Shown one piece after another: positions 162 through 29,462 of a stretch of 64,000 bases of DNA; within the stretch, counting starts at the first letter, position 1, and every line of letters begins with the position of its first letter. A model generated the notes under the pieces. It was given only the letters and a program-made list of their open reading frames with translations, was not told where the DNA came from and did no database searches. The stretch covers positions 62,001-126,000 of the forward strand of contig PNAA01000057.1 in NCBI GenBank assembly GCA_003169975.1, given 5' to 3'. Source of the DNA: Spartobacteria bacterium. Lineage in GTDB: Bacteria; Verrucomicrobiota; Verrucomicrobiia; Chthoniobacterales; UBA10450. Made by a program: the position numbers and the translations under genes.

Positions 162-637
162 CACTCCATCTCCACGCTCGCCACCGCCAGCGCGGCCATT
201 CCTTCACCCCGGCCGAGCGCGCCCATCCCCTCGTTCGTCGTCGCTTTGATTCCGACCCGCGCCGGATCGATCCCGAGCGCCGCCGAAATCCTGCTTCGCA
301 TCGCCTCGAGATGCGGCCCGATTTTCGGCGCCTCCGCGATCAGCGTCGCATCGACGTTGGCGACCCGGCAATTTTTCTCCGCCAATATTTCGCCGACCCG
401 GCGCAGGATTTGGAGGCTGCTGATGCCTCGAATCGATTCATCCGTATTCGGGAAATGGTGACCAATGTCGCACTCCCCGATCGCACCTAACAATGCATCG
501 GCGATCGCATGCGTCAGCACGTCGGCATCCGAATGGCCCGCCAGCCCCCGGGCGTGCGGGATCTCGACTCCGCCGAGGACGAGCGTGCGCCCGTCTCCGA
601 AACGGTGCGCGTCATAGCCAATTCCGGAACGAAACAT
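161..637 (-). CDS. ispF: 2-C-methyl-D-erythritol 2,4-cyclodiphosphate synthase
   Basis: Cytoplasmic enzyme of the MEP isoprenoid pathway that cyclises CDP-ME 2-phosphate to ME-cPP with loss of CMP. The 158-residue length is normal. Visible hallmarks are the start IGYDAHRF with metal ligands D9 and H11, a third ligand H43 after the loop [11 protein letters not shown], and the C-terminal ATTNEGMG motif. It overlaps cysS by one ATGA and starts 10 bases after the inositol-phosphatase-like gene, so all three are probably one minus-strand operon. A CGTTAGGC octamer lies at the junction with that upstream gene (640-647). Confidence 0.96.
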
Positions 638-646
638 CTCGTTAGG

Positions 647-1393
647 CTAAAGCTGCAGATCGAGCAGACCGTTCGAGGCGATGATGCTGAATTTGTCCGG
701 CGCATCGCTCCGCGACTGCAGTTCGACCTGGCCGCCGGCGTTCTCCACCAGGATCCATCCCGCCGCGATATCCCACAGGCTGATCCCCTGCTCGATGTAA
801 GCGTCGAGCCGCCCGCAGGCGACGTAGGCCATGTCGAGGGCGGCGCTGCCTAACAATCGACACTTGCGCGCGCGATGCACCATTTTCTCCAGCAGCGGGA
901 AGCCCGCGTCAATTGTCGCCGTGGTTTTCGAGAGGCCAACCGAGAGGATTGCTTCCGCGAGTTCGGCGCGTGGACTGACGCGAAACTCCCGGCCGTTCAA
1001 CAACGGCGCTTCTTTCTTTTGCGTGGTCCAAAGCTCGTTGCGAATCGGGTCAAAAATCACGCCGACAATAATCTCCCGCCGGAAACGGAGCGCGATCGAG
1101 ACGCAAAAATGCGGGATGCCGTAAAAAAAATTCACCGTGCCGTCGAGCGGATCGACGACCCATTGATAATCGCTTGCCTGGTCGCCGACGATGCCTTCCT
1201 CGCCGTAAAGGGCGTGCTCCGGGAAGTGCTCAAGCAGAATTTTGGTGATCAAATCCTGGGCGAGAACATCGACCTCCAGCTTGATGTCGTGGGCCAGCGC
1301 GGCGTGCACCGCGAGCGGTTTCTGGAAATGTGAGCAAAGCAGATCGCCCGCGGCCCGCGCCGCTTCCGTCGCGACATCGACAAAATGAATCAC
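647..1393 (-). CDS. inositol monophosphatase family protein
   Basis: Mg2+-dependent phosphatase of the SuhB/CysQ/IMPase superfamily, which hydrolyses inositol-1-phosphate or related small phosphates such as PAP or histidinol phosphate. At 248 residues the length is normal. The metal site is complete: GEE (E65, E66), DPLDGT (D81, D84) and WDIAAG (D208). The substrate cannot be decided from sequence, so SuhB-like is the most that can be said. It heads the run suhB-like, ispF, cysS. Confidence 0.88.
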   Translation of the reverse strand: MIHFVDVATEAARAAGDLLCSHFQKPLAVHAALAHDIKLEVDVLAQDLITKILLEHFPEHALYGEEGIVGDQASDYQWVVDPLDGTVNFFYGIPHFCVSIALRFRREIIVGVIFDPIRNELWTTQKKEAPLLNGREFRVSPRAELAEAILSVGLSKTTATIDAGFPLLEKMVHRARKCRLLGSAALDMAYVACGRLDAYIEQGISLWDIAAGWILVENAGGQVELQSRSDAPDKFSIIASNGLLDLQL

Positions 1394-1478: not shown

Positions 1479-1535
1479 TTGAAGTTAACTTGAGGAAGAA
1501 CGGTTCTGTCACCGCCCTTCTGTGGAGATCCGGAC

Positions 1536-1619
1536 CTAATGTTTCTTTTTGCCGGATGCTTTTTTCTTAGTCGCCATCTTTTTCTTGGCTGGCTTCTTAG
1601 CTTTCTTTTTTGCTGGCAT
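1536..1619 (-). CDS. 27-residue lysine-rich peptide (histone H1-like tail)
   Basis: A short frame starting with ATG at 1617-1619 encodes 27 residues, of which more than half are Lys and the rest mostly Ala and Pro (it begins MPAKKKAKKPAKKK). The purine-rich stretch AAAGGGGGGATT upstream can act as a ribosome binding site, and a strong terminator follows at 1440-1478, so it looks like a self-contained transcription unit. Lys/Ala/Pro tails of this type bind DNA in histone H1-like proteins of Chlamydiae and other bacteria. DNA or RNA binding here is an inference from composition only. It could also be the remnant of a longer protein. Confidence 0.6.
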   Translation of the reverse strand: MPAKKKAKKPAKKKMATKKKASGKKKH

Positions 1620-1700
1620 TAGGGAATCCCCCCTTTCAATCCGCAGAAGCGGTCTGTGAACAGTCTGTGAATAACTTCACTTTCATCGTGTCACTAATCG

Positions 1701-2354
1701 TCACGATTTTTTTGTCAAACATTTTTCGCGCGCATCTAAAATTATTTTCAACAGCGCGCGCGCAAGTTCCGTTTTCTTGGCGCGCGAAAGTTTCCTGCGT
1801 TCGCCGTTCGAAAAGAAAATCAGGAGTTCGTTGTCGTCGGAATCCATCCCCACATCCGCGCGGCTGACGTCATTCGCGACCAGCAGGTCACAATTTTTTT
1901 CCCTCAACTTGCGGGCCGCGTGCGCTTCCAGCTCCTGCGTCTCGGCCGCGAAGCCGACGACAAAACAGCGGTGCGGTCTACTCGTTAGGCTGGCGAGGAT
2001 GTCGCGCGTCGGGACGAGCGCGAGAGAAAAAGGGCCGCCTTGTTTTTCCATTTTCTCCGGGGTGTAGTGCGCCGGCTGGTAATCGCAAACCGCGGCGCAC
2101 ATCACGAGCACGTCGCAATGCTCGAGCCGCGCGGCGACGGCGTCGAACATTTCGTCGCCCGTGGTGACACGCATGACCTCTGCGCCGGCCGGCGCGGGGA
2201 TTGCGACCGGCCCCGAGATCAGGGTGACGGCATGATGTTCCTCCAGCGCGGCCGCCGCGATCGCGTAGCCCATCTTGCCCGAGGAGCGATTGCTCAGGTA
2301 GCGGACAGGATCGAGCGGCTCCCGCGTCGGCCCGGCCGTGACGACGAATTTCAC
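1701..2354 (-). CDS. coaB: phosphopantothenate--cysteine ligase (CoaB, separate from CoaC)
   Basis: Second enzyme from phosphopantothenate to CoA: joins 4'-phosphopantothenate and Cys using a nucleotide triphosphate. The 217-residue protein starts VVTAGPTREPLDPVR and continues with RYLSNRSSGKMGYA, both typical of the CoaB half of Dfp/CoaBC. The start is GTG at 2352-2354, overlapping the coaC stop as GTGA. In most bacteria CoaC and CoaB are one chain. Here they are two frames joined by a 4-base overlap, so translation is probably coupled. Confidence 0.93.
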   Translation of the reverse strand: MKFVVTAGPTREPLDPVRYLSNRSSGKMGYAIAAAALEEHHAVTLISGPVAIPAPAGAEVMRVTTGDEMFDAVAARLEHCDVLVMCAAVCDYQPAHYTPEKMEKQGGPFSLALVPTRDILASLTSRPHRCFVVGFAAETQELEAHAARKLREKNCDLLVANDVSRADVGMDSDDNELLIFFSNGERRKLSRAKKTELARALLKIILDAREKCLTKKS

Positions 2355-4654: not shown

Positions 4655-6559
4655 TCAGTGCGGCCGTGACGCGCCGAGTTCGAACAAACGTTGTTTTGCC
4701 TCCGGGTAGTCCGGCTGGAGTCGCAATGCTTCGGTCAGATGCGAGCGCGCCTCATCTTGTCGCCCAAACTGCGCAAGCAAACGTCCCAAGTTGTATTGCG
4801 CCTGGGCATACTTTTCGTTCATTCGCACCGCTTCGCTAAACTGTTCGAGCGCCTCATCCGTTTTTCCGATTGTTTCCAAGCCAACCCCCAGGTTATTGTG
4901 AGCCTTGTCATAGTTCGGCCGTATTCGCACCGCCGCCCGGTAGGAATCGATTGCACCGGGCCAGTCACCTTCGTTGGCAAGAGCGTTACCGAGGTTGCAG
5001 CGCAATTCCGCGGAGTCGGGTTTGATCGCAACAGCTTCCTTATACTGGGAGATTGCTTCGTCTAACCGCCCGATTTGCAGAAAGGCCGCGCCCAGATTGT
5101 TGTGGGCCTCCGCGTAATGAGTATTGAGTTGAACTGCCTTTTGAAAGTAACCGATAGCCTGGCGAGCTTGCTCCTTCTTCATAAGCGCGTCCCCCATATC
5201 GTTATAAGTTTCCGCGTAGGCAGGATTAATTCTTAGAGCCTTTTGAAAATGAACAATGGCCTCCTCTACCCGTCCCTCGCGAAGGAGCGCGTTTCCCAAG
5301 TTGCTCTCCACCGGTGCGACGTCAGGTCTAATCTCAAGGGCCTTTTCGTAATGTTCGATGGCACCATCAAGTCGACCCTGCTCCAGTAAGGCATTGCCGA
5401 GGCTGTTTTGAGCGATGTGATTGCTGGAAGTGTTATCGACGGCGTGCTGCCATAAAGTTTCGCTATTCTGCCAATAGGACGTTTCACCGTGGGCGAGCAC
5501 CAATCGCCGTGATAATGAGGGCGGCGGCAGCGACCAGCATCTCGCGGCCGCGGGGCCGTTTGGCGACCAGCTCGATCGCGCCCCACGTGGCCGCTATGTA
5601 CAAACCAATCTGGGGCAAGTATGTGTAGCGATCAGCTCGTGAATGCGACCCTACCTGCACAATGCCAATCATGGGAACGAGCATTCCCACGAACCAGGCC
5701 CAGCCAATCAGCAGAAATGGGTGTTTTTTCCGCCAAAGAAAAAAAGTAACCGAGATGCTGGATAGAAGCAGGAAGGCGAGAATGAATTCCGGGGATCTCA
5801 GACCGCCTTCCGGATAGGGATACAAAACCGCCAGGTGCGCGGGGTAGATCATCTGACCGAGGTAGGTGACGTAAGAGACGACGGACCAGCACCGTTGCGT
5901 ATCGACTAGGGGAACGCCGGTCGCTGCGCGCGTAGCGGGCGTAAGCCAGGAGGATGAGCATGAAGAAAACTCCGGTGAGCACATCCTTTCTCTCTGATAT
6001 CCACGCGACCGATTCGACGCGTAGCGGATGAATGGCAAAGACTGCGGCGACGAAGGCGCTGGGCCAAATATTGCCAATCCGGTCCGGGCGCCACGGCGGC
6101 ACGGATTTATCCTGTTGCGGTTTGGGGCGGCTGGTGAGTCGTCGCAACCAGGAACAGTAAGATAGCCGCGGTGGCTTGCAGCAGAACGTTGGTCAGATGA
6201 TGTCCCCATGGCTGGAGGCCGTAAAGCTGGCAGTCCAGCATGTGTGAGATCGTCGTGAGCGGATGCCAGCTGTCAGCGTGGAAATGGGTAAACGCCCACA
6301 GCATGCCTTTGAGCGTCAGCCCATTGGTTATATTAGGGTTATCGTAAACGTAATCATTGTCATCGTAGTTCACGAAGCCGAAGGCGAGCGTCTGGCCAAA
6401 GACGATCCAGGTGATGGCGACGAGCCCGAGACAGATGGCTGGAATCAACCACCACCGGGTTTGAGTGTCTGGGTGACTCGATCGTGGAATAATCCGTGGC
6501 GCAGATCCGGCCCGCAGACGTTGCTTCTTTCCCGCCTGCTTCCTGGCCTTGTGCTTCAT
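4655..6559 (-). pseudogene. decayed membrane glycosyltransferase/TPR protein (TMTC-like)
   Basis: The reading goes through four frames. About 6559-6130 encodes the exported N-terminal part with NYDDNDYVYDNPNIT and WHPLTTISHMLDCQLYG. About 6130-5930 has AIHPLRVESVAWISERKDVL. About 5920-5500 has SYVTYLGQMIYPAHLAVLYP. Then 5503-4655 is an intact run of TPR units (repeats ending in NLGNAL and similar). These are successive parts of one known family: a multi-pass O-mannosyltransferase-like domain followed by TPRs. Three frameshifts, plus a gap of over 100 residues near 5925 relative to what I recall of the family, make it non-functional. The original ATG (6557-6559) overlaps the stop of the upstream GT2 gene, so the two once formed a coupled pair. 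The TPR part alone (5503-4655) remains open and could still be made. Confidence 0.75.
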
Positions 6560-23756: not shown

Positions 23757-25325
23757 CTACTTCTTCGCCTTCGGTTCCGGCGCGGTTTCTTCTTCCTGCG
23801 CCTGGCGCGGGCCGGTGCGCGTGGGGATTCCGGTGGTCAGCCCGTTATAGTCCGTGGATCGCGGGTGGATGACGACCACGCCCTTGCCCGTGATGACATA
23901 TTCGCGGATGTCTTTGCTGTGATTGCCGCCGCGCATTTTGATGACGACCATCACCTTCCGAAGCTGGCCGTCAATTTCCACATAACGCATCCGGATAATG
24001 TCATCGGTCAGAAACGAAATCGTATATTGGCTAAAGGGCAACGCGGTAAATGTATCCTCCACCTCAACCGTGCTGAGAACCGTAACCCCGGCTCCCGTCA
24101 ACCCCCCGATCATTCGGTAGAGCGACTCGCGAAAGTCCGTGCGGAAACCGGGCGCCAGCGCCATCTCAAAACCGACCAGCGAATCGATCACCAGCCGTTT
24201 CGCGCCGATCCTTTCGACGGCATCCAGAAGCTCTTGCATGGTTTCATCCACGGAAAGGTCGAGCGGACGAAGGTAAAGGATTTCGAGTTTTCCCTTTTCC
24301 TGCGGCTTTTTTAAATTCAAACCAAAACTGTCGGCCCGCTCCGTGTATCCTTTCTGGCGTTCTTCGAAGATCGCCATAATTCCCGGTTCCCCCTTGCGCA
24401 GTCCTTCGGCAATAAATTGCGTGGCCAGCGCCGATTTTCCCGTTCCCGAAGGCCCCGCCACCAGGAGACTGTCGCCTTCGAGGATGCCCCCGCCCATCAT
24501 CTTGTCCAACTCGGGAACGCCCATGGAAAGCCGCCGATTCCGCGTCGGTATCATCTTTTTGCCGACCAATCCCAGCGTGCGCGAGAAGGCTTGCAACCCG
24601 CCATCGCTGATGCGGATGGTGTGCAATCCCGGCACCGAGTTCTGCCCGCGCTGTTTCATGATTTGCAATTTCCGCACCACGGAATTTCTCTCCGCCAACT
24701 GCGAAAGCCAGATGAGGCCATCGGCGATGGTGAAGAGCGGGTTGTCGCGGATCTCTTCCTGGACATATTCGCCGACTAGAAACGTCGTGGCTTCCCAACT
24801 GGTCAGAAACTGGGCGAGGCGCTGGATGAACGATTGCATCTCCAATTCGCTCGCGCCGCTAATCGCTTTGCGCACCACGGTGCGAAAGGAATCCACCACC
24901 ACGATGCCCGGACTGATCGTCGTGACCTGTTTGATAATTTCATCGATGACCGCGTTCAAATCCTGCTGCAACGCCAGATCGGACAGGTTGATAAAGCGGA
25001 TGGCCTTGCCCAACTTGGATTCGTCGAAGAAAGAAAATTGTTGCTGATAGCGCAACATTTTCATGGCGGGTTCGCCAAGGACGGTGAAATAGAGCGCTGG
25101 TTTCTTCGCCGTGGCATTGGCGAAAACGATCTGATGCGACAGCGTGGTTTTACCGCAACCCGGCGAACCGGCAATGATGTTGAAAGAAAATTCCGGGATG
25201 CCGCCGCCCATGATGTCGTCGAGGCCGCGCACGCCGGTCGGCAGTTTGCGGATCGTGACTTTAGCCGGCTGGCTCACGGCTTTCTTCGGCAGTTTACGTT
25301 TAGCCGCGTCATTTTGCTTTTTCAT
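23757..25325 (-). CDS. kaiC: KaiC-like double RecA-domain ATPase
   Basis: A 522-residue protein with two KaiC domains. CI has Walker A GSPGCGKTT (53-61), CII has GPSGTGKSA (291-299), and the catalytic Glu regions read LGEP near 84 and FEE near 321. In cyanobacterial KaiC the CII phosphosites are adjacent S431 and T432; here the matching residues are S437 and F438 (TISFLTDD), by my hand alignment, so at most one site is kept. The N-terminus is Lys-rich. It is coupled by ATGA to the gene upstream and followed closely by a hybrid kinase. No kaiA or kaiB is present, so signalling rather than a true clock is more likely. Confidence 0.9.
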   Translation of the reverse strand: MKKQNDAAKRKLPKKAVSQPAKVTIRKLPTGVRGLDDIMGGGIPEFSFNIIAGSPGCGKTTLSHQIVFANATAKKPALYFTVLGEPAMKMLRYQQQFSFFDESKLGKAIRFINLSDLALQQDLNAVIDEIIKQVTTISPGIVVVDSFRTVVRKAISGASELEMQSFIQRLAQFLTSWEATTFLVGEYVQEEIRDNPLFTIADGLIWLSQLAERNSVVRKLQIMKQRGQNSVPGLHTIRISDGGLQAFSRTLGLVGKKMIPTRNRRLSMGVPELDKMMGGGILEGDSLLVAGPSGTGKSALATQFIAEGLRKGEPGIMAIFEERQKGYTERADSFGLNLKKPQEKGKLEILYLRPLDLSVDETMQELLDAVERIGAKRLVIDSLVGFEMALAPGFRTDFRESLYRMIGGLTGAGVTVLSTVEVEDTFTALPFSQYTISFLTDDIIRMRYVEIDGQLRKVMVVIKMRGGNHSKDIREYVITGKGVVVIHPRSTDYNGLTTGIPTRTGPRQAQEEETAPEPKAKK

Positions 25326-27375: not shown

Positions 27376-28176
27376 CTATGTACGTGCCAGACGCTCGTAT
27401 CGTCCGCCACCGAGAAATAACACGAGCCCAAGGTCGCGAAGGCGTTGCATCTGTTGACGCAGCTTCTCGCGAACGTGTCGATTATCGGGATATCGCGATG
27501 TCGCGAGCGGTAAACATGCGGCGAATACTTCCGTCATCGTGAAACTCTCGGAGGGGATTTGTGATATTCCTTCCATTGTCAATTGTAGCCAACCTGAGAA
27601 GCTTCCGATGAGCCGTTCCAATTGACGGCGCTGAAGTCGGACCCGCAGCGGCGTTTCGATAGCCTTGTCCCGCAATATCGTGACGCGCGGCAGAGCCGCG
27701 CGCAAGCTCTCGACGGGGCCTCGCAACTCCGCCAGATCGTCGGCAGTCCAGAGCTGCGGCTTCGCCTTGCTGCCAAACCCCGACCTAATGAAACCTCGAA
27801 GTACGCCGATATCTTTGCGGCGCCTAATCTCAAAACCGCACTCGCGATTGTGATGCATTCCTGAGAACGTCGCGTTTGCAGATGTGATCAGCGCTCGTCT
27901 GTTGTCGACAACGTAGACTTTCGCGTGAAGAGAGCTAAGGCTCAGAACTCCACCGCTTCTAACGGCTAATGCCCAAACGGCTTCCAAATCAGAGGCATCA
28001 CGGGCGAAATCGCTTAGGAGTGTTCTTGTGAGAAGCGTAAACTCGACGTTGTTGCGGACCTGCGAGACAGCCTTCTCCAAGTAGACTCCGACGTATGGAC
28101 TCGCAACGGCGAAGGACGATGAGCAGTCCTTCAAAGCACTCGCGAGCCATCGATCTGTGGGAGAAACAATGATCAT
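27376..28176 (-). CDS. phospholipase D-superfamily nuclease-like protein with C-terminal winged helix
   Basis: A 266-residue protein. The N-terminal 120 residues form a PLD-like domain with one HKD motif (LHAKVYVVDNRRALITSAN: H84, K86, D91, N101); a single motif implies a dimeric active site, as in the endonucleases Nuc and BfiI. The C-terminal 70 residues (YPDNRHVREKLRQQMQRLRD, then GLVLFLGGGRYE) resemble the DNA-binding winged helix at the end of several restriction endonucleases such as the Dam-replacing family. The start overlaps the small gene upstream (ATGA). A DNA-cleaving defence role is an inference. Confidence 0.75.
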   Translation of the reverse strand: MIIVSPTDRWLASALKDCSSSFAVASPYVGVYLEKAVSQVRNNVEFTLLTRTLLSDFARDASDLEAVWALAVRSGGVLSLSSLHAKVYVVDNRRALITSANATFSGMHHNRECGFEIRRRKDIGVLRGFIRSGFGSKAKPQLWTADDLAELRGPVESLRAALPRVTILRDKAIETPLRVRLQRRQLERLIGSFSGWLQLTMEGISQIPSESFTMTEVFAACLPLATSRYPDNRHVREKLRQQMQRLRDLGLVLFLGGGRYERLART

Positions 28177-28382
28177 TTCCCAATCATATCGACCACGCCG
28201 CGTGTTTGGGTTGGAAGAACGGACATCGGTTGCACAAACAAGTTACCAGCCTCGACGTCATCTCCCGGTGACTCGCCAACGTCCCAATCGATCTTAACAA
28301 CGCGCAGGTTCTTCGCATCGCTGTAAACCTCCTGAATCACGCCGCCACTAATTTCGATGATGAGCGTCTGCATATGAGTCAT
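28173..28382 (-). CDS. 69-residue protein of unknown function
   Basis: A small acidic protein with MQTLIIEISGGVIQEVYSD and VVKIDWDVGESPGDD. Similar short proteins with this I-E-x-x-G-G-V-V-Q-x-V-Y pattern occur sporadically in bacteria as far as I recall. It sits between the BglII/BstYI-like remnant and the PLD gene, overlapping the latter by 4 bases and following the former with no gap, which implies one operon. No function can be given. Confidence 0.6.
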   Translation of the reverse strand: MTHMQTLIIEISGGVIQEVYSDAKNLRVVKIDWDVGESPGDDVEAGNLFVQPMSVLPTQTRGVVDMIGK

Positions 28383-28793
28383 TTATTTCCATCTCATCAC
28401 AAGATCCACATCAAAGTCATAAGTTCGACTTACAATGGGGCTACCTATTGACCGCTTCTCGGGTGACCCATCGACAGGGCCCATCGCTTTCTTGCAACAA
28501 TCAACCTTGTGAGTGGGACTGTCCATTACGGTTTCATCGACCCGGATTTGCGTTTCGAATTTTCGTTCGCGCCAACCCCGTTTTGTAAATTCGCTGTCAA
28601 TCGATCCTGATACCTTACTCTTCCCGCCTCCCCCGACACTAATGTGACTCTTCAGGAGACGAAAAGCGCTCAGCACCGCCACGATGTCATCCCATTCCTG
28701 GCGAAAATCGCTGCGCAATACGGCTGATGCCTGCCGCCATTCGTGAACTGCGTAGTTTTTGCGAATGAATCCGGAAAGATTGCTCAGCGCCAC
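28383..28793 (-). CDS. BglII/BstYI-family restriction endonuclease, truncated
   Basis: The 136 residues begin (GTG) with LSNLSGFIRKNYAVHEWRQA and include LLKSHISVGGGGKSKVSGSI and VDETVMDSPTHKVDC, the N-terminal and central parts of BglII/BstYI-type enzymes. In relatives the next segment carries the catalytic E-x-E and a conserved W-N-N-K-D stretch. Here it is replaced by an unrelated tail after KVDC, so the active site and the C-terminal half are missing. It may be a dead remnant or a regulatory remainder. No cognate methyltransferase is seen within the window. Confidence 0.6.
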   Translation of the reverse strand: MALSNLSGFIRKNYAVHEWRQASAVLRSDFRQEWDDIVAVLSAFRLLKSHISVGGGGKSKVSGSIDSEFTKRGWRERKFETQIRVDETVMDSPTHKVDCCKKAMGPVDGSPEKRSIGSPIVSRTYDFDVDLVMRWK

Positions 28794-28953: not shown

Positions 28954-29286
28954 TCATTCGTTGAATGGTTCGTCGCGATGGCCGTGCCAAAAGCGCAGCA
29001 CTTCGACGATTCCATCGGCTTCTTTTAGCAGGTAAAGGATGCGGTACGAGTGCTTGAAAACCGGCAGCTCCTGCGTCTCCGGATAGGCGGTGTGGCGGAG
29101 ATGACGGCCCGCGCGCGCCGTGCCGTGCCGCAATCGCTCAGCTGGCGGATCGCTTCAGTCGGAAGGTCGTGCGCGTATTGCTCGCCACGCTCCGGTTCAT
29201 CGCGGTCGGTCCAGTAGCCGACGATTTCGCCGACGTCGTCCCACGCGCTCTCCGTGAAGGATTACGCGGAAGTTTTGCGCGGCCAT
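28954..29286 (-). pseudogene. RelE/ParE-type toxin with two frameshifts
   Basis: From ATG 29284-29286 the reading MAAQNFRVIL matches a toxin N-terminus. A shifted frame continues AWDDVGEIVGYWTDRDEPER and RQLSDCGTAR. A third frame gives SYRILYLLKEADGIVEVLRF and ends WHGHRDEPFNE with stop at 28954-28956. All three pieces together make a normal-length ParE-like mRNA interferase or gyrase toxin. The frameshifts, at about 29,255 and 29,120, should inactivate it unless they are sequencing errors. Confidence 0.7.
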
Positions 29287-29462
29287 CGCTCCTGCACTTT
29301 CGCCAGGAATTCCTCCCCGCCGTAAGTGCGTCCTTCGCGCACGTCTTCCATCGCTTCACCGATGGCGTGATTCATCCGCAAGGTCTCGCGAACTTCAGTG
29401 AGCAACGGAGAATTATCGGGACGTTCATCAACGAGATTGTGAATCTGTTGCTTGAGCGTCAT
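29262..29462 (-). CDS. antitoxin of the broken RelE/ParE module
   Basis: A 66-residue protein (MTLKQQIHNLVDERPDNSPL and a C-terminal region EGRTYGGEEFLAKVQERW) that overlaps the start of the toxin remnant by 25 bases, the usual antitoxin-first arrangement. The C-terminal part is the likely toxin-binding segment. No classical ribbon-helix-helix motif is obvious, so the antitoxin class is unclear. Confidence 0.6.
   Translation of the reverse strand: MTLKQQIHNLVDERPDNSPLLTEVRETLRMNHAIGEAMEDVREGRTYGGEEFLAKVQERWPRKTSA

Follow-up and report, generated by a model that had tools for sequence, protein, structure and literature searches.

A PLD–winged-helix nuclease gene with a small partner gene in the probable ruin of a BglII-type restriction–modification operon

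Within a 64,000-nucleotide stretch of the genome of a soil bacterium of the Spartobacteria (the window), three minus-strand genes at 27376-28793 are, in the reading we consider reasonably probable, the ruin of a type II restriction–modification (RM) operon. Its middle would have been replaced by a small gene, orfB, and by orfC, encoding a PLD nuclease with a DpnI-type winged helix (PLD-wH), with the locus switching from self-marking to attacking marks. The enzyme class is already known, while the setting is new, with a small partner of its own, in the ruin of a probably incompatible system and apparently twice. At the sequence level, this reading draws on the domain make-up of the genes, on stubs, on relatives that keep the operon intact and on two cases in which an orfB–PLD-wH pair adjoins such stubs. 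An earlier note on this DNA had reported the same three reading frames and their operon-like layout with the PLD protein as the sole intact nuclease, and both points held. Its further suggestion, a possible shift of nuclease function to the PLD protein from the BglII-type one, is not supported: orfC encodes a separate enzyme of opposite logic, a predicted cutter of methylated DNA.

The first gene, orfA (28383..28793, minus strand; 136 aa, GTG start), is the 5' remnant of a BglII/BstYI-type endonuclease gene. In a Pfam search, it matched the BglII profile PF09195 at 2.6e-11, over profile positions 2-80 of 163 only, and its product is 88% identical to a stub in genome G010 and 71-72% identical to one in G063 (G and L numbers denote genomes and loci). 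Full-length homologues carry D98-x8-E107-x-E109 followed by ~85 more residues. Compared with these, orfA departs from the family just past 'HKVDC', with both glutamates missing, and is without the D-x8-E-x-E/Q set, which we take to be catalytic in BglII, and without the C-terminal half. PDB sequence searches with the full-length endonuclease as query gave no match. Homology to full-length relatives and to G063 stops at about residue 105, and an unrelated tail (~residues 106-136; 28383..28478, minus strand) replaces the catalytic half, bearing out the earlier description of a truncated endonuclease that kept its N-terminal part and lost its catalytic segment. The stub is probably a passive leftover, and its low dN/dS of 0.074 against the G010 stub may leave room for some remaining function. 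Upstream lie a short reading frame whose match to the ParE toxin profile stays below threshold (PF05016, 20.5 of 23 bits) and a small one preceding it (window 28954-29133 and 29262-29462, both minus strand), a possible toxin–antitoxin remnant.

The nuclease gene, orfC (27376..28176, minus strand; 266 aa), encodes a predicted N6-methyladenine (6mA)-dependent type IV restriction enzyme. Its Pfam matches to PLDc_2 (1.2e-8), PLDc (1.5e-5) and DpnI_C (8.1e-16), with a PF17726 score of 58.4 bits against a cut-off of 23, are, as profile comparisons go, far above chance, as is that of orfA. Alignment located the HKD active-site motif at residues 84-101 (H84-x-K86-x4-D91 ... N101; 27874..27927, minus strand), and the winged helix spans residues 191-263 (27388..27606, minus strand), according to a structure match to DpnI (4kyw) and a profile match to 4esj (1.5e-13). 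By profile alignment, with a numbering shift of 3 set by this analysis, K238 and R240 (27457..27465, minus strand) are the equivalents of DpnI K229 and R231, whose K229A/R231A exchange weakens methyl-DNA binding, according to the available text of PMC4117772. H84, K86, D91, N101, K238 and R240 are unchanged in all 11 rows of an alignment of the window protein with ten relatives (L015 omitted for its stop, L024 partial); together with the DpnI_C match, this agrees with the intact H-K-D-N set and DNA-binding C terminus proposed earlier. In the structure model (mean pLDDT 86.3), the first 150 residues matched Nuc (Z 14.5, 138 residues, 2.7 A), with SauUSI (Z 11.8), BfiI (Z 11.5) and also NgoAVII as lower matches of the PLD part, and the last 75 residues matched the DpnI winged helix (4kyw; Z 11.5, 71 residues, 2.3 A, 32% identity). 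Assignments to DISARM DrmC (NF038319, 45 bits against 133 required) and to NgoFVII-type PLD restriction enzymes (PF09565, 13.5 against 23.8 bits) were rejected. DrmC, BfiI, NgoAVII and SauUSI have the PLD nuclease fold in common with orfC, and none of them, to our knowledge, has a C-terminal DpnI-type winged helix.

By architecture, orfC belongs to the PLD-wH class that Helbrecht et al. (2024, PMC11037411) described as type IV restriction enzymes with a predicted dependence on N6-methyladenine, and of which 27 proteins are listed in the available sections of that paper. Two of its members, Aba4572I and CbaI, have the same arrangement of N-terminal PLD nuclease and C-terminal DpnI-type winged helix, and winged-helix fusions mostly occur without a cognate methyltransferase, as at the orfC locus: among >1,000 such fusions, 87% had no methyltransferase in the three genes on either side (PMC11037411). 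CbaI toxicity was reported as Dam-dependent, Aba4572I was toxic even without Dam and neither could be purified (PMC11037411), so methyl-dependence is a prediction for the class and an inference for orfC. Unlike these two genes, orfC is preceded by a small gene and sits in a BglII/MT-A70 operon ruin; no such ruin is reported among the gene neighbours given for Aba4572I and CbaI in the same sections of PMC11037411.

A genome scan with an alignment of four proteins as query returned 27 loci, 11 of which (L014-L024) match orfC over nearly full length at 39-73% identity. These relatives belong to Verrucomicrobiota, Planctomycetota, Chloroflexota and one unclassified bacterium; L014, L015 and L018 are metagenome assemblies by title. 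Eight of the 11 have neither orfA nor orfB, and in the flanking DNA examined nine show no trace of a BglII/MT-A70 RM system and the other two stubs only. Pfam assigned none of ten neighbour proteins from six loci (L016-L020, L024) to an RM family, the ResIII match among them sitting within a DEAD helicase, and plasmid-type D12 methyltransferase stubs accompany the PLD-wH gene at 0 of the 11 loci. Searches of plasmids, phages and viral contigs for a complete PLD-wH protein gave partial matches or nothing. In a phylum sample of 387 genomes, DpnI_C was matched in 18, and the 18 loci comprise 11 DpnI-like, three HNH-type by eye, two outside the motif used and two PLD-wH loci, one in the window and the other, L083, reading as the L018 protein.

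Between orfA and orfC lies orfB (28173..28373, minus strand), a small acidic gene product (computed pI 4.2) with homologues upstream of the PLD-wH genes in L014, L015 and L018, the last at 36% identity by tblastn and 32% by alignment. Its reading frame was present as the earlier note had described, at 69 aa (28173-28382, with an ATG 9 bases earlier); from comparison of start codons, the protein probably has 66 aa, because ATG 28373 is the start common to relatives, its equivalent codon being the start in L014 and L015. Of the gene overlaps described in that note, one stood, a 4-base ATGA shared by the orfB stop and the orfC start (28173..28176, minus strand), while orfA and orfB merely adjoin. 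Neither Pfam nor NCBIfam contained a family matching orfB, a plasmid search found no match and its structure model is of low confidence (pLDDT 56.9). Our guess is that orfB controls or chaperones the nuclease. PLD-wH enzymes are described as hard to express (PMC11037411, available sections), and orfB would be a natural partner gene for co-expression. Small genes also follow the distant PLD-wH genes in L019 (3265-3513, 82 aa) and L020 (2515-2748, 77 aa); by eye, their products resemble each other and not orfB, and the L019 protein has no Pfam match.

The form of the ancestral operon emerged from relatives. With the G063 stub as query, orfA homologues were detected in 11 of 147 relative genomes, and seven regions were examined. 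Five (G034, G005, G119, G019 and G003; L105-L109) carry an MT-A70 gene whose start either falls inside the end of the endonuclease gene or comes no more than ~40 bases after it, with PF05063 matches of 8e-31 and 9e-27 in two of the proteins. MT-A70 proteins are adenine methyltransferases. Across the phylum sample, PF09195 was found in 28 of 387 genomes at 29 loci: MT-A70 adjoins at 15, another methyltransferase-like motif (motif only) is present at ten and four, including the window, have no methyltransferase in the flanking DNA examined. The earlier note had named two findings that would speak against its idea, and both occur: a methyltransferase linked in relatives, here MT-A70 directly after the full-length endonuclease, and homologous loci without the restriction-like gene, namely the eight PLD-wH loci mentioned above. 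Among 11 genomes tested for PF05063, some of them already known to carry MT-A70, the family was present in six and absent in G000, G063, G079, G108 and G010; all six tested genomes whose endonuclease sequence extends past the stub have MT-A70, and those without it are four with a full PLD-wH gene (G000, G063, G079 and G108) plus G010, which has an endonuclease stub and no PLD gene. In G003 (L108) and G019 (L107), the endonuclease is frameshifted and the MT-A70 frame is open, which suggests that the endonuclease was lost before the methyltransferase. In L104 (G010), a methyltransferase-like N-terminal fragment with weak Pfam matches only (5018-5206) precedes the endonuclease stub, further gene ruin.

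The probable mark of this operon can be approached by analogy. Acinetobacter baumannii A118 has a BglII/BstYI-type RM system of the same endonuclease family as orfA, and SMRT sequencing showed that it methylates adenine in RGATCY, giving RGm6ATCY (PMC10287943, available text). Its methyltransferase is annotated there as a DNA adenine methylase, with an HTH gene between, whereas the Verrucomicrobia operons have MT-A70. Plasmid relatives of the Verrucomicrobia endonuclease, from Acinetobacter TR3 (47% identity) and Dyadobacter (55%), come with the gene set of A118, an HTH gene plus an adenine methyltransferase. By this analogy, the Verrucomicrobia operon probably marked RGATCY with 6mA.

The replacement is most complete in G063, where the 5' half of the endonuclease gene, orfB, the PLD-wH gene and a C-terminal MT-A70 stub follow one another on one strand. 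On the left, 330 bp match the RM operons (E 1.4e-49) up to base 640 of the reversed contig, with orfB at 681. On the right, the MT-A70 stub (34 aa, 65-74% identity, E 8e-9 to 8e-11) starts no more than some tens of bases from the PLD stop, and 66 bp of DNA (1725-1790) match RM operons at E 1.4e-10. Both flanks keep the order and strand of the RM operons; as judged from these matches, the orfB–orfC pair replaced the middle of the RM operon in G063. The case for an operon ruin at the locus is strong. Each genome has its own end point for the endonuclease stub, which closes with 'FYD' in G063, with 'HKVDCCKK' in the window and with 'DRDVNN' in G079, there at the edge of the contig; the G079 DNA match to the RM operon is weak (26 bases, E 0.024). 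No methyltransferase stub was found in the window, and the orfA tail also differs from that of G063.

In the PLD gene of G063, codon 10 is an in-frame TAG, and this copy may be dead. This stop, the cut orfA, the broken endonuclease genes of G003, G010 and G019 and the ParE-like fragment nearby would all fit plain decay, in which an eroding defence region retains all three genes as inactive remains and the switch brought no function that lasted. We consider this unlikely, as orfC is full length in both the window and L014 with every catalytic and winged-helix signature residue, and differences in orfB (dN/dS ~0.22) and orfC (dN 0.19, dS saturated) are mostly synonymous.

A second case favours replacement of an RM operon. 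In L018, a Verrucomicrobiaceae genome, a PLD-wH gene 44% identical to orfC is accompanied by an orfB homologue and, inverted on the opposite strand ~80 bases before orfB, by the last 72 residues of a protein of the same MT-A70 type with its stop codon (70.8% identity, E 5e-32). With the near loci (window, L014 and L015) counted as one event, an orfB–PLD-wH pair apparently came to lie beside stubs of one operon type on two separate occasions. Clear RM stubs accompany three of the four orfB-bearing PLD-wH genes (the fourth, L014, has a weak edge match) and none of the eight without orfB, and the RM queries matched 0 of 40 other control loci. In a tree built from the window protein and its 11 relatives (12 PLD-wH proteins), the presence of orfB in four rows takes two changes, and at least two separate gains or losses are forced by branches with good support. 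Clustering of these rows is in itself unremarkable, because 27 of 500 shuffles matched it. A bolder proposal is that orfB–PLD-wH is a dedicated cassette that singles out adenine-methylating BglII/MT-A70 operons for invasion and destruction, at least two times independently, with orfB restraining the nuclease until replication dilutes the old marks. We regard it as doubtful; if true, it would convert a self-marking defence into a mark-attacking one.

For the replacement reading itself, we propose that the ancestral operon comprised a BglII/BstYI-type endonuclease gene followed by an MT-A70 adenine methyltransferase gene, and that a two-gene cassette of orfB and PLD-wH took the place of part of the former and most of the latter. 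The winged helix would read 6mA in or near GATC, two PLD chains would pair into one metal-independent active site, and foreign-marked DNA would be cut while unmarked host DNA is spared. A methylating RM system and a cutter of the same mark cannot share a cell; 6mA in RGATCY is the probable mark of the displaced system, whose methyltransferase could then not have coexisted with orfC. Likewise, PLD-wH would persist only where MT-A70 has been lost, as the mark, if RGATCY 6mA, is what a DpnI-type winged helix reads. Streptococcus pneumoniae offers a likeness in DpnI/DpnII, where one chromosomal place holds either a GATC-methylating RM system or a cutter of methylated GATC (PMC3573125, available text). 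The pneumococcal alternatives are intact, whereas stubs of the old operon remain at the orfC locus, and DpnI is a PD-(D/E)XK-wH enzyme whereas orfC is PLD-wH. Crossing from one logic to the other is hardly documented outside DpnI/DpnII among the open-access papers searched, which also yielded none on BglII with MT-A70 or on RM-to-type-IV replacement. Here, the crossing left both stubs in G063 and seems to have occurred twice, and the order of steps is open to study.

The absence of a methyltransferase nearby, which the earlier note had found odd, was confirmed in the window for PF05063, PF02086, PF01555, PF02384 and PF00145. It is explained twice over, the old methyltransferase having been displaced and the predicted 6mA-dependent type IV enzyme needing none. 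Elsewhere, the host encodes other adenine methyltransferases, with 12 PF01555 matches, six PF02384 matches and a D12 protein whose match to the Dam family falls short of threshold (80.6 of 114.85 bits); a host methyltransferase marking GATC, if any, would mean self-attack by orfC. With 471 occurrences in the window against 414 expected, GATC shows no depletion, which fits the methyl-dependent reading but cannot discriminate. Mutual exclusion of PF09195 and PF17726 gave no signal in the 387-genome phylum sample, with one co-occurrence (this genome) against 1.3 expected, and genome-wide exclusion is therefore unsupported.

That orfC instead recognises a different modification or a structure, or is a toxin triggered by phage, is quite unlikely: a 6mA/GATC motif or close relatives occurred in only ~10% of new winged-helix fusions and Aba4572I behaved oddly (PMC11037411, available sections), but orfC has 32% identity to the DpnI winged helix over 71 residues, keeps the K229/R231 equivalents and belongs to a pair that recurs in the remains of an operon whose methyltransferase is of the adenine type. 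Very unlikely is a working orfA stub that binds DNA or dimerises as a partner of the PLD-wH enzyme and so lends it a preference for GATC, as the stub's low dN/dS, its open frame abutting orfB and the GATC-core sites read by BglII-family enzymes (PMC10287943, available text) are set against stubs whose last residue varies among the window, G063, G079 and G010, retention of the G010 stub without a PLD gene, the eight of 11 PLD-wH loci without orfA or orfB and divergence that may mostly predate truncation.

Two further observations concern neighbouring matters. One contig in L007 (G069) bears a Dam-like methyltransferase fragment (423-836, plus strand) and a DpnI-like gene (1489-2208, minus strand) in which a stop stands where Trp is conserved; the two may be a further pair of opposing GATC systems, likewise broken. 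The window also encodes, at 23757-25325 (minus strand), a KaiC-type ATPase with two KaiC stretches (PF06745, 4.6e-71).
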